Positions 56,056 to 63,946 of a stretch of 64,000 nt of DNA are shown here, one piece after another. Source of the DNA: Trichormus variabilis 0441 (GTDB taxonomy: Bacteria; Cyanobacteriota; Cyanobacteriia; Cyanobacteriales; Nostocaceae); assembly GCF_009856605.1 (NCBI RefSeq), contig NZ_CP047242.1, forward strand, positions 5,770,501-5,834,500, given 5' to 3'. Each line of letters begins with the position of its first letter. Positions within the stretch are counted from its first letter, which is position 1. Made by a program: the position numbers and the translations under genes. The notes beneath the pieces are model-generated. The model was not told the DNA's origin. It made no database searches and was given only the letters and a program-made list of their open reading frames with translations.

Positions 56056-56433
56056 ATGGAGGAGAATGATTTAAGTGGGATGATAATTGGGTGTGGAATG
56101 AGGGTGCATACGGTGTTGGGTCCAGGGTTGTTGGAGTCGGCTTATGAGGAGTGTTTGTTTTATGAGTTGAGGCGGGAGGGATTGAGAGTGGGTAGGCAAA
56201 TTCCCGTACCGCTTGTGTATAAGGAAGTGGAATTAGATTGTGTTTATCGATTGGATTTAATAGTAGAAAATAAAGTAATTGTTGAAATCAAATCTGTAGA
56301 ATCTCTCAAACCCATTCACGCAGTACAACTTCTAACTTATTTAAAACTCACAAACTGCAAACTAGGACTCCTCCTTAACTTTAACGTCCTCCACCTCAAA
56401 GAAGGCATCAAACGCTTAGCCAACAACCTCTAA
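56056..56433 (+). CDS. GxxExxY protein (PD-(D/E)xK nuclease-like)
   Basis: A 125-residue member of the GxxExxY family, named for Gly24-x-x-Glu27-x-x-Tyr30 in [12 protein letters not shown]. The nuclease-type core follows: Asp67 in [10 protein letters not shown] and Glu77-Ile-Lys79 in VIVEIKS, then [11 protein letters not shown]. The fold resembles restriction and Holliday-junction nucleases. Function is unproven, although such genes multiply in cyanobacterial genomes as if mobile. It reads against ureB and ureC from inside an inverted-repeat cassette. GGAGAGGAGT immediately before the ATG serves as ribosome site. Confidence 0.88.
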
Positions 56434-57154: not shown

Positions 57155-57994
57155 TTAAGTTTGCCACACTCTGGGTGTACATTTACTACGACTGAAAAAC
57201 TCAACTCGCAGCAATTGCCAAACATCTGTAAACCAGTTTCTCACCTCAGATGTGGAAGCACCACGATATCGACATAAAAATCCATTTTCTAAACTTGTAA
57301 CGCCTTTTTCGCCTTGAGTATTCCCTAAATTTCGGGCTTTGGCGATGATTTCTGTGGAAACCGCACTACCCAACCAAACTAGACTACCCACTATTGGTTG
57401 CCCAGCCAAACCATGAGGACTGTGAAAAACAGCTTCGTTCCCCGGTAGCCATTGACGGTCTATCCACAAAGGAACGCCTTGTCGCCAAATTTCTGTATGC
57501 GATCGCCATTCTCCTTGGTAGAATTTCTCTCCTCTAGCACTACGACCAAATCGCGTAATTTCCCAGCCTAAAAAATTAGCGCCAGTGGCTAATTCTACCC
57601 GTAAATCTTGGCGATAAATTGCCCCGTTAAATAAAATCGTTTCTTGCGGTAGCCATTCTAAACAAGCACCCGCATCAATTTTTATATCTATGGTTTGTCT
57701 GGCTTGTAAGCCTTCGCTGCGATATATTTTCCCTGCGGCGGCGGTGGTAATTAAAGCTTGTGCGTTGGGTTGGAGGTGGAGGTTATAAGATAAGCGATCG
57801 CCTCCCACCACACCCCCAGCCGTATGTAAAATCACGCTATGACAAACTTTTTCCCCTTCTGGATAAAAGGGACGCTGTACTTTTAGCGGTGCTTGCTGGT
57901 GATTGTAAATTAACTGGGTAGAATTTGAGCGATCGGCATAAACTAAATCAAGTTTGCCATGCCAGCCTTCTATTGGCTGTGAATTGAAAGCCAT
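57155..57994 (-). CDS. ureD: Urease accessory protein UreD
   Basis: A scaffold for nickel delivery that binds apo-urease with UreF and UreG. The 279 residues show the UreD pattern: HTAGGVVGGDRLSYNLHL (about 52-69), ITTAAAGKIYRS, and CLEWLPQETILFNGA (about 108-122). It is the first gene of the D-A-B-C cluster; the promoter should lie in 57995-58128, shared with the convergent end of the 58129 gene. A short frame at 58048-58233 is not considered coding. Confidence 0.95.
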   Translation of the reverse strand: MAFNSQPIEGWHGKLDLVYADRSNSTQLIYNHQQAPLKVQRPFYPEGEKVCHSVILHTAGGVVGGDRLSYNLHLQPNAQALITTAAAGKIYRSEGLQARQTIDIKIDAGACLEWLPQETILFNGAIYRQDLRVELATGANFLGWEITRFGRSARGEKFYQGEWRSHTEIWRQGVPLWIDRQWLPGNEAVFHSPHGLAGQPIVGSLVWLGSAVSTEIIAKARNLGNTQGEKGVTSLENGFLCRYRGASTSEVRNWFTDVWQLLRVEFFSRSKCTPRVWQT

Positions 57995-58128: not shown

Positions 58129-60795
58129 TTATACCGCACCTTGGCGAATCATCTCAAAACCATATACATATATATCCGCAACCTTATAACGTTTCTCTTT
58201 TTCGCGCCATTCAATAATGCCAATTTCACGTAAAAAAGAAGTAAATTCTTCAAAATCTGCTATGTCATGTGCAGACTCTTGCCATATAGTACGTAATTCA
58301 TCTTGAGTTAAAAAGGCTGATTTATGCTTGAGAGATTCAAAAAATTTAGCCAAATCAGGATATTCCTCTCGGATCTCATCACAGCGTTTTTCTGATGCCT
58401 TCTTCAACCCTAATTCTAAAGATTTACTTCGCAGTAAACGGTCAGTAGGTGGTTGAATTGATGATTTTCCTTTATAGCTTAATTCTTGCTCTTTTGCTCC
58501 TTCTAATAATATGCTTAAACTTCGAGGAAAGGTAGTATCACTTGAGTCTGTTAATCTTTCATAAACCCATCTGGATACATATTTAGCTTTGTCTCCTGTT
58601 CTACGACGACTTCCCCAAAGTAATTCTAAGGCTTTATCAATCACTTCTTCACTAGCTTGATCAATACTTTCAACAGCAATAGGAGAGAATTTATCAACTA
58701 AGTTCTTGAAATCTTGAGATTGTATTACTTGACGCAGTGCTAATCGTAAAAAATCAACTCTAGTCCACTGTAGTAGAATATCGCGTCCATTGAAATGACT
58801 TCTGTTGTCAAAAATTAAGCGATTCCATATATCTTCTCTCAAGAAAACTTTAAATCTAATTGCTGTTAATCTGTTGGCATCACAAGACTGAATCAATTGA
58901 AATAAGCCCGTTATTGCTTGCTGTCTTACTTCTCCTGCTTGACGAAAATCTTCATCTAAATCATCGTAAAGAAACCACAGTTTTTGAGATTTATTTTTAG
59001 CTTCTTGATGAATTATGTTTATGAGATCTTTGACGATAAGCCGTAGATCAGAATGAGTAGACATTTGTAATAAAGCCTGGGTAGATTCATACTGCCATCC
59101 TTCTGTAGGTAACTTATTAATAATTTCTTTCAATCGGCTAAATTTATTATTTCTAGGGAATTTAAATAATTTTTCTTGATGACATCTCAGCAGTAAATAA
59201 GCTCTCCAAAAAGACTCCCATGTTCCATGATTTTGCTGCAAATGCCGATGGATAACTTGGAACTCATCACGAGAGGGACGGCTTTCTTTAAATCTACCAT
59301 GTGCTGACAAAAATACAGTATTATCTAATCGTCCATGAGCCAGTTTCTGACCAACGCTTTTGTGTTTTAGAAAAAGCGAATACAGAGCGGTTTTACCTGT
59401 TCCCTTTCGTCCTCTTATCAAACAGGTAGTATCATCTAAGAATTTTTCAAAATCAGTGGTACGCTGAAATATTAGACCTAAATGTTCTGTATCAGCAGCA
59501 TTTACTTCAGGAAATTGCAGGCTTTCAATAATAGTCCAGCGTTTTTCTGAGTTAGCTAAAACATTTTTGCGTTCGAGATCATCAGTTTCTTCATCAATCA
59601 AATTGGCAATTTTATTATAGTAATCTAGTAAAGCTGGGACAGGATAGTTGTCAGCCAAAGCAATTAGCTGTATGTAAGGAACTACTAAAGGTTCTTCTAT
59701 TTTTGATTGATAATTATCTATATCTTCCTCGTTATTATTTTCATTAGTTACGATTTTTATCCTCTCAAACAAAGATTTGCAAATTTCTTTTACTTTAGAT
59801 AAACCTATTTTAGTAATATCAGGTACAGGAGAAAAAACAAAATTAATTGATAATTTCTTCAGGCTTTGAAGCGATTGTAAAAGTAGTTCTATGCCCTGTT
59901 TATTTTGTTCGTTAGGGAAAAGGAAAATGATTGCTTCGTCAGCAGCTTGGATTAATGATAAAGCTCCCCATTGATTAATTCCGGTTCTCGAATCAATTAA
60001 GATAATATCTGGTTTTAATTGTTCGTAAATTTCAACCTTAAAAACAGACCAAAGACTTTGATCTCCATCAATAACAGTAGTAGCATGTAGATCATCAACC
60101 TTAGAAACATAATCAAGATTAAGAAAACCAGCAGGAACAACAAATAATCTCCCTGTAGCATTAGGTATTCTCACTTCACCAAATATTTCTGCAATTGAAA
60201 TATTTGGCTTTATTCCTTCTGGTAAGTAGGAACGCTCATAAAAATAGTCAACAATTCCATATTTTGGTTGTGGTTTGAGGTTAAATGCTGTACTCAAACC
60301 TGGTGCTTCTAAATCTAAATCAACAGCTACAACTTTACGTCCCCGCTTTGCTAAAATCCAAGCAACATGAGTTAATGCTGTAGTACGTCCTACTCCTCCT
60401 TTAAAGGAATAAAAAGTTACGGTTCTGGGTAAACTAGGTTCACGCTGGAGAAGTTGAGGTTGATTTTGCGGATTTGCTGCTTGAATTGCTAAATCTTGCC
60501 ACGTTTTTACTGAAGTTGTATTAAAAACCTGCGGTGCTGAAAGATTCAGTGAATCTGCTTCTTGAGGCGTATACAAGGAAATAAACCCAGCAGATAAATG
60601 AGGAACTTGTGATTTAAATAAGTTGTAAATCTGTTCTTTACGTTGAGGAATAGATAAATTAATAAATTCCTCGCTCACAACCGTCAAATTTAGTAAACCT
60701 GATGTAGAAATATTTAAATCAACCCATTCTTGTGAATTATGCACATACTGGTTTGTAATTTCTTGCTTTAGCAAAATTTGCCAATTTTCCTGCAT
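58129..60795 (-). CDS. BolA-like / KGGVGR (ParA-MinD-like) ATPase / second P-loop ATPase fusion
   Basis: An 888-residue three-part protein. Residues about 30-80 (LNLTVVSEEFINLSIPQRK...ISLYTPQEA) resemble the BolA fold, a reading I make by eye. Residues 124-400 are a deviant ParA/MinD-type ATPase: KGGVGRTT (132-139), VDLDLEAPG (158-166) and IILIDSRTG (264-272). Residues 430-730 form a second P-loop module with GRKGTGKT (462-469) and Walker B-like LWFLYDDLDED (606-616), like the Sll1717-type family. A helical, winged-helix-like C-terminus ends in REIGIIEWREKEKRYKVADIYVYG. The HEPN-like gene ends 12 bases upstream, so both are co-transcribed. The DNA is AT-rich. It is probably an NTP-dependent conflict or defence component. 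Confidence 0.85.
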   Translation of the reverse strand: MQENWQILLKQEITNQYVHNSQEWVDLNISTSGLLNLTVVSEEFINLSIPQRKEQIYNLFKSQVPHLSAGFISLYTPQEADSLNLSAPQVFNTTSVKTWQDLAIQAANPQNQPQLLQREPSLPRTVTFYSFKGGVGRTTALTHVAWILAKRGRKVVAVDLDLEAPGLSTAFNLKPQPKYGIVDYFYERSYLPEGIKPNISIAEIFGEVRIPNATGRLFVVPAGFLNLDYVSKVDDLHATTVIDGDQSLWSVFKVEIYEQLKPDIILIDSRTGINQWGALSLIQAADEAIIFLFPNEQNKQGIELLLQSLQSLKKLSINFVFSPVPDITKIGLSKVKEICKSLFERIKIVTNENNNEEDIDNYQSKIEEPLVVPYIQLIALADNYPVPALLDYYNKIANLIDEETDDLERKNVLANSEKRWTIIESLQFPEVNAADTEHLGLIFQRTTDFEKFLDDTTCLIRGRKGTGKTALYSLFLKHKSVGQKLAHGRLDNTVFLSAHGRFKESRPSRDEFQVIHRHLQQNHGTWESFWRAYLLLRCHQEKLFKFPRNNKFSRLKEIINKLPTEGWQYESTQALLQMSTHSDLRLIVKDLINIIHQEAKNKSQKLWFLYDDLDEDFRQAGEVRQQAITGLFQLIQSCDANRLTAIRFKVFLREDIWNRLIFDNRSHFNGRDILLQWTRVDFLRLALRQVIQSQDFKNLVDKFSPIAVESIDQASEEVIDKALELLWGSRRRTGDKAKYVSRWVYERLTDSSDTTFPRSLSILLEGAKEQELSYKGKSSIQPPTDRLLRSKSLELGLKKASEKRCDEIREEYPDLAKFFESLKHKSAFLTQDELRTIWQESAHDIADFEEFTSFLREIGIIEWREKEKRYKVADIYVYGFEMIRQGAV

Positions 60796-60807
60796 TTGAC
60801 TACCTCT

Positions 60808-61248
60808 TTAAAGTTGAGTAGTTTGCTTCTGTAACCACCCTTTGAGACTCTGATAGGATTTTAACCAGCGTTTGTAACTTTCATCATCAGGCTCAAGGCC
60901 AGAATAACGCATATCTATAAAATTTTGACTATTTGGATTTTCCACTTCATCAAGCCACTTTCGTACTTCAGGAAAATTAGCAATTCTAGATTTAAGTCGA
61001 TTGTGCCGGTTTAATGCTTCTATGTAACTATGTCCAGGATTAGTAATAGTATGCCCAGGATTAGTAGAATCTGTCTTCCATTCCTGAGTTGCACCCCTTG
61101 GTAAGTTAGCAAAAATCATGGCTTTTAATAAACACTCAATGGTTACACCTCCAAAGTGCATAGCTGCTACTCTTCTTTCTGAGTCCTTTCTACATAATAT
61201 TTCAGTATCAAGGTGACGCTGCATAAAAGCGGCTTGGTAATCTTCCAT
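60808..61248 (-). CDS. HEPN-like small protein, partner of the 58129 ATPase
   Basis: A 146-residue helical protein starting MEDYQAAFMQRHLDTEILC. The segment GGVTIECLLKAMI (about 33-45) and the later IDMRYSG (111-117) match HEPN-domain proteins of cyanobacteria (GLAAECxLKA and DMRYS). The catalytic R-x4-6-H of RNase HEPNs is not evident, so it may be a non-catalytic or adaptor HEPN. A small internal duplication (TNPGHT, TNPGHS at about 62-73) lies in a loop. It is the first gene of the pair; translation of the ATPase begins 12 bases after its stop. HEPN identity is moderately secure. Confidence 0.6.
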   Translation of the reverse strand: MEDYQAAFMQRHLDTEILCRKDSERRVAAMHFGGVTIECLLKAMIFANLPRGATQEWKTDSTNPGHTITNPGHSYIEALNRHNRLKSRIANFPEVRKWLDEVENPNSQNFIDMRYSGLEPDDESYKRWLKSYQSLKGWLQKQTTQL

Positions 61249-61872: not shown

Positions 61873-62160
61873 CTAACCTCGTCTTACAGATTCATCAAAG
61901 ATTTGCATTTGCTCTGGAGTCAAATCATTTAGCATTCCTGAAACTAAATTCAAAGACAAAATACTTTTAATACGCTTCGTTAATTCCTCTTCAGAGATAC
62001 TTTCCAGATCAGGAACAACAGATGGATCAAAAGTGCGATTAATCATTGCAATCATTTCCTGTTTATTTAAGTTTTCCTGATAAAGATGATTATTGTCAAT
62101 TAAGGTTTTGACAATTTCAGTTAATCTTTGAGAATTAGATTGATGATTAATCAAACTCAT
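61873..62160 (-). CDS. Antitoxin partner of the VapC remnant
   Basis: A 95-residue soluble protein (MSLINHQSNSQRLTEIVKTL...). It has a helical middle and a C-terminus (LNDLTPEQMQIFDESVRRG) of the type that precedes PIN toxins in cyanobacterial TA operons. Its TAG stop (61873-61875) abuts the toxin ATG with no gap, a coupled arrangement. It remains intact although the toxin is broken. No typical AbrB or RHH DNA-binding motif is clear. The 145-base gap to groEL holds the groEL terminator. Confidence 0.7.
   Translation of the reverse strand: MSLINHQSNSQRLTEIVKTLIDNNHLYQENLNKQEMIAMINRTFDPSVVPDLESISEEELTKRIKSILSLNLVSGMLNDLTPEQMQIFDESVRRG

Positions 62161-62305: not shown

Positions 62306-63946
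<1,641 letters not shown>

Follow-up and report, generated by a model that had tools for sequence, protein, structure and literature searches.

The locus and the domains of its two products

Within the window, i.e., the whole stretch of 64,000 nucleotides that was analysed, two minus-strand genes with ATG starts are separated by an intergenic gap of 12 nt (60796-60807). The first (60808..61248) encodes a protein of 146 aa with a predicted HEPN fold, and the second (58129..60795) an ATPase of 888 aa that joins a BolA-like domain, a KGGVGR domain and an Sll1717-type module. The genome holds a single full-length match to the 888-aa protein, four further matches being partial and lying over its ParA-like part, and a promoter and terminator scan of the locus gave signals at the level of shuffled sequence. 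Two syntenic neighbours on the same strand form the context outside the system: an upstream ORF that we take to be groEL (62306..63940) and a downstream ORF that is presumably ureD (57155..57994). Between groEL and the HEPN gene lies an ORF of 95 aa (61873-62160, minus strand), whose relatives (69-80% identity) occur at varied places near the system (L044, L048, L051, L053-L055, L058 and L156) and whose match to Pfam CTD9 (ABC-3C) is weak (0.013). Additionally, a GxxExxY/PDDEXK_3 protein (3e-44, 9.9e-44) is encoded at 56056-56433 on the plus strand, opposite to the urease genes between which it lies.

The N-terminal domain of the ATPase (residues 1-86; 60538..60795, minus strand) is predicted to fold like BolA. 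Searched alone, it matches Pfam BolA with an E-value of 1.3e-4 (22.6 bits, below the gathering cut-off of 25.7), and 41 of 58 related N-termini match this family on their own at E<=1. When compared by hhalign with 30 cyanobacterial BolA proteins, the N-termini reached a probability of 96.9% (E 1.9e-10), against a maximum of 1.01% in 30 column shuffles; these shuffles, the predicted structure and profile matches to the PDB rule out a chance resemblance. The JGI label 'BcsQ/stress-induced morphogen', the latter part of which we assume to denote BolA, is carried by 2 of 120 listed homologs, indicating that an automatic pipeline had already caught the likeness. In BolA proteins a conserved histidine before the last strand serves Fe-S/glutaredoxin function, and 28 of the 30 BolA proteins compared have an IHAL-like motif; no histidine is found at positions 69-71 in any of the 58 N-termini, position 70 being glycine in 47 of them.

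The next domain (residues 123-310; 59866..60429, minus strand) is a KGGVGR variant of the ParA/MinD-like ATPases, matching NCBIfam NF047398 AAA_KGGVGR (2.9e-50, 171.2 bits, above the cut-off of 90) and the PADLOC model PDC-M28B. In its deviant Walker A motif, KGGVGRT (residues 132-138; 60382..60402, minus strand), the lysine of GK[TS] is replaced by arginine; in the four subfamily III proteins compared, arginine also takes the place of the first lysine (RGGVGRS). The C-terminal module (residues 433-870; 58186..59499, minus strand) matches NCBIfam NF047389 ATPase_Sll1717 (3.5e-42, 145.1 bits, above the cut-off of 75) and PDC-M28C, and retains on the same strand an intact Walker A, GRKGTGKT (residues 462-469; 59389..59412), and an acidic Walker B, FLYDDLDED (residues 608-616; 58948..58974). 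Pfam matches of this module in 31 relatives at E<=0.1 comprise AAA_16 (21/31), nSTAND3 (12/31), ORC-CDC6-like (9/31, best 4.2e-7) and NACHT (7/31), and point to candidate kinship with STAND/ORC-like AAA ATPases; the NACHT and AAA_16 matches of the window's own protein lie below the cut-off, and no solved structure close to the module was found by sequence (best 0.0056).

The 146-aa partner is predicted to have the HEPN helical fold. HEPN structures ranked first in the VIA structure comparison, Foldseek alone gave weak support, and 14 of 56 family members match PF05168 at E<=1; the Pfam search with the window's protein returned no match, and the family profile found no HEPN protein in the PDB by sequence. 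An unrelated helical bundle was considered as well and is countered by the PF05168 matches and the VIA ranking. Residues E38, K42, H73, R114 and Y115 are invariant in all 56 partner proteins, a pattern that agrees with the alternative-His HEPN class in the portions of PMC3710099 covered here. An Rx4-6H motif starting from R114, its usual place, occurs in none of the 56, so that catalysis may have been lost; according to the same portions, the motif is also absent from that place in the AF0298/AbiV class (PMC3710099). The bare Rx4-6H pattern is present elsewhere in 44 of the 56, the window copy lying at residues 25-31. A sequence-only reading of this DNA had described both ORFs, the 12-nt gap and the motifs KGGVGRT, GRKGTGKT and FLYDDLDED, all of which were re-read at the same positions; its BolA-like wording of the N-terminus is borne out above chance and by the predicted fold, and its HEPN-like partner by the predicted fold.

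Distribution of the pair and its chromosomal site

A scan of genome contigs yielded 245 stretches encoding a relative of the ATPase, the best 80 of which were kept as loci. These best 80 of 245 come mostly from cyanobacteria, and further from Ktedonobacteraceae, Bacillus, Tumebacillus, Paenibacillus, Methylococcales and other Gammaproteobacteria, Nitrosospira and Electrothrix. The HEPN gene stands beside the ATPase in 74 of the 80, in several phyla, and 67 loci have an intact pair as judged by length (ATPase at least 850 aa, HEPN at least 115 aa). Six loci are without a partner: L088 and L104 begin at a contig end, L067 and L083 show none, and L061 and L090 hold remnants of 43 and 50 residues, respectively. 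In Calothrix sp. NIES-3974 (L019/L080) the ATPase is broken by a stop, with an opposite-strand ORF of 305 aa between the pieces and the HEPN frame open. The sequence-only reading had suggested a search for the same domain order elsewhere, and the pair recurs across several bacterial phyla; neither of the outcomes it had named against itself, an N-terminal fold unlike BolA and a HEPN gene not conserved beside the ATPase, was found. The module is not restricted to the multicellular bacteria which that reading had in mind, as loci also occur in Microcystis, Bacillus, Paenibacillus and Methylococcales.

The correlation between tree distances of the HEPN proteins and those of the ATPases is 0.97 (68 pairs, from 67 loci plus the window), as expected for any long-linked pair, and of the 30 HEPN clades with support, 12 contradict ATPase clades that are likewise supported. 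Among 22 groEL-linked loci (within L034-L058, and L072) the HEPN protein is of one of two types, with 59-68% or 88-94% identity to that of the window, independently of ATPase identity (77-94%), which is a hint of possible allele exchange in a fixed operon. Among 119 relatives, own genome included, the ATPase is present in 28 (subfamily I in 15, II in nine and III in four), and a fused subfamily II copy lies near hsdR on a plasmid of Nostoc sp. UHCC 0870. In the phage collection only a partial ParA-like match was obtained, in 12 records, all of Enterococcus.

In 24 of the 80 loci groEL lies upstream on the same strand, and in 18 of these it ends 388-671 nt before the ATPase start, leaving room for the HEPN gene only; one of the 18, L083, is without HEPN. 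In L062 groEL is on the other strand, and no groEL was found in 18 random stretches. The linkage is nearly confined to close relatives: 23 of the 24 belong to the 32 loci whose ATPase identity is 75% or more, and among the 48 others of the best 80 only L083 has it. The gene ureD falls within the flank of 13 of the 80 loci. In a survey of ureD itself, found in 57 of 69 genomes (own included), 30 of which became loci, groEL was within the 1.5-kb flank in five of the 30. Four groEL-ureD sites are empty of the operon (L187, L191, L199 and L206), and a fifth, L195, holds a HEPN relic (805-1131) in pieces that are 95% identical in nucleotides and have ~139 nt inserted between them, with the ATPase absent before ureD. 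The empty sites and the relic show that the operon has been gained and lost at a single site, in one case or more by decay.

Possible functions of the module

On balance, the two genes probably make up a conflict module, directed most likely against phage, in which an NTPase gates a HEPN RNase of the abortive-infection kind. The HEPN protein would be the effector, a putative RNase of the AF0298/AbiV type that acts independently of metal through H73, R114 and E38, and the 888-aa ATPase its sensor and switch. Since its P-loop lysine is arginine, the KGGVGR domain could serve as a slow, nucleotide-dependent dimer switch; the Sll1717 module, putatively STAND/ORC-like, would assemble when triggered, and the ligand of the BolA-like (KH-type) domain would be nucleic acid or a protein of phage or host, not an Fe-S cluster. 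In an infected cell the HEPN protein would be set free or activated by the ATPase, RNA would be cleaved and growth would stop.

Several lines of evidence favor this defence role: the kinship to the candidate anti-phage system PDC-M28 and the gene order shared with split plasmid loci of Paraburkholderia and Calothrix; the predicted HEPN fold with its five invariant residues and its likeness to the alternative-His class, together with a PDB title naming AbiV 'an RNase in a two-component antiphage system'; the retention of the partner across phyla with correlated tree distances; and the patchiness seen in the limited carriage among relatives, presence or absence at one site, the relic, the plasmid copies and the tree conflicts. 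What counts against it is that in many Nostocales the locus keeps a fixed place behind groEL, unlike a mobile island, that PDC systems are predictions, two others of which gave no defence when tested (PMC12409345, in the part covered), and that Rx4-6H is missing at R114. The surroundings of the locus were also compared with PADLOC models. Near 18 cyanobacterial copies, 142 of 162 neighbour ORFs were searched (left out were 20 syntenic ORFs, namely copies of groEL, presumed groES, urease genes and a further conserved neighbour), and no family was matched by more than three ORFs among the 25 families listed; the control was a random draw of 142 from 197 ORFs in random stretches of the same contigs, where the family maximum was six among the families listed. 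The families matched at all, counted as families and not as proteins, numbered 77 near the copies and 53 in the control, a difference in the other direction.

A toxin-antitoxin pair, in which the ATPase would hold a HEPN toxin in check for self-maintenance or stress response and not against phage, is improbable. Such a role has been proposed for the HEPN protein MAE_18760 with a ParA/Soj ATPase (PMC3710099, in the portions covered), and it would suit the tight operon with its small gene first, as well as L061, L067 and L078, where the ATPase is intact and HEPN absent or truncated. However, MAE_18760 keeps Rx4-6H, according to the same portions, and the partner described here does not at R114. 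HEPN ORFs also stay open beside broken (L080, L111) or shortened ATPase genes (L063, L075), which one would not expect if a toxin had lost its antitoxin, assembly errors aside; with that proviso, the frames beside the broken genes fit an ATPase-dependent effector better than a free toxin. A three-domain ATPase of 888 aa is, moreover, far bigger than usual antitoxins. Across the loci, the asymmetry of HEPN being lost before the ATPase gave mixed cases and no trend.

It is equally unlikely that the BolA-like domain and the groEL site mark a chaperonin- or stress-linked regulatory module with a role in stress or proteostasis, whose HEPN protein would bind or cleave RNA under stress. BolA proteins are known stress factors, and the upstream groEL in 24 of the 80 loci, 18 with room only for HEPN, would agree with such a role; its near confinement to close relatives does not, and the empty groEL-ureD sites show the locus to be dispensable. 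Furthermore, no groEL was found within ~6 kb of the subfamily II/III copies in L161-L167, and none is annotated around the plasmid copy L118. A HEPN protein acting as a non-catalytic RNA- or nucleotide-binding adaptor, with the output made by the ATPase itself, would explain the missing Rx4-6H at R114 and recalls the motif-less HEPN domains discussed as RNA binders in the covered portions of PMC3710099, but it too has little likelihood, as binding alone need not require the invariance of E38, H73 and R114 in 56 of 56 proteins.

Returning to the NTPase-gated RNase, a more specific and rather doubtful, if possible, extension is that a bacterial immune NTPase captured a BolA/KH-type domain, removed its metal-binding histidine and employs it as the trigger sensor of a HEPN-RNase abortive-infection module; split systems would sense by a different N-terminal domain, the sensor having been exchanged and the core kept. 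If this is true, BolA-like domains would serve a purpose beyond iron-sulphur and morphology control, namely within a signalling NTPase that is coupled to an RNase-type effector. Strains with and without the module at one Nostocales chromosomal site offer natural pairs for comparison.

Comparison with PDC-M28 and other known systems

The MAE_18760 dyads share with the pair a small HEPN gene adjoining a ParA-type ATPase; their HEPN protein belongs to another family, the portions of PMC3710099 covered contain no Sll1717-type module, and the word 'BolA' does not occur in the text of that paper as searched. With HEPN-T/AF0298 and AbiV, as far as the covered parts of the sources go, the partner has in common the HEPN fold, a conserved arginine ahead of the last helix (R114), a conserved histidine after the second long helix and before the one that follows (H73) and an acidic residue in the second helix (E38). 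The partner differs from them by its obligate-looking ATPase, and identity is low (8% to 2hsb over 118 residues). The N-terminus resembles the BolA family (PF01722) in its predicted fold, and departs from it by scoring below the cut-off, by the missing histidine and by its fusion to two NTPases.

The sequence-only reading had supposed an undescribed system, which stands in part. In the literature searched, judged mostly by title, no description of BolA in a HEPN/KGGVGR ATPase-type module was found: articles on BolA and anti-phage defense held none on such a module among the matches listed (title and start of abstract), those on BolA domain, ParA and ATPase none by title, and those naming HEPN with BolA were unrelated by title. 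A search for papers naming PDC-M28, KGGVGR or Sll1717 likewise found none. Thus, the BolA-like domain together with the B/C fusion is a variant without a description found in that literature, but the core is already described, both as the PADLOC candidate PDC-M28 in its split three-gene form and by the NCBIfam names of both ATPase modules. Two other PDC candidates gave no defence when tested (PMC12409345, in the part covered).

To judge by its model matches, the module appears to be a fused form, with a BolA-like domain added, of PDC-M28, whose models were matched in order (A 2.2e-5, over residues 2-67 only; B 3.9e-41; C 6.6e-28). The split form is found on plasmids of Paraburkholderia (L116) and Calothrix PCC 7716 (L117), with strong model matches, and, by tblastn and annotation, of Burkholderia glumae (L119); in Calothrix PCC 7716 it (L117, 204-3077) is divergent from an adjoining HmaC-like ATPase (5.3e-118). 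Unlike the window protein, B proteins of split length have N-termini that are not BolA-like: a BolA-like N-terminus was sought with a profile of 118 of them (from 122 sequences, i.e., two plasmid proteins and 120 listed homologs of one, classed without their gene neighbours) and rejected at 0.2% against BolA by hhalign. Against the fused N-termini the same comparison gave 2.05% (E 0.023), and the split-length N-terminus may be their diverged relative. Both forms share the order of a HEPN-type gene, a KGGVGR ATPase and an Sll1717-type ATPase, B and C being separate genes in PDC-M28 and one gene in the window, and the fused module makes PDC-M28 available in a form that spans phyla, aligns well and offers clear residues for mutation.
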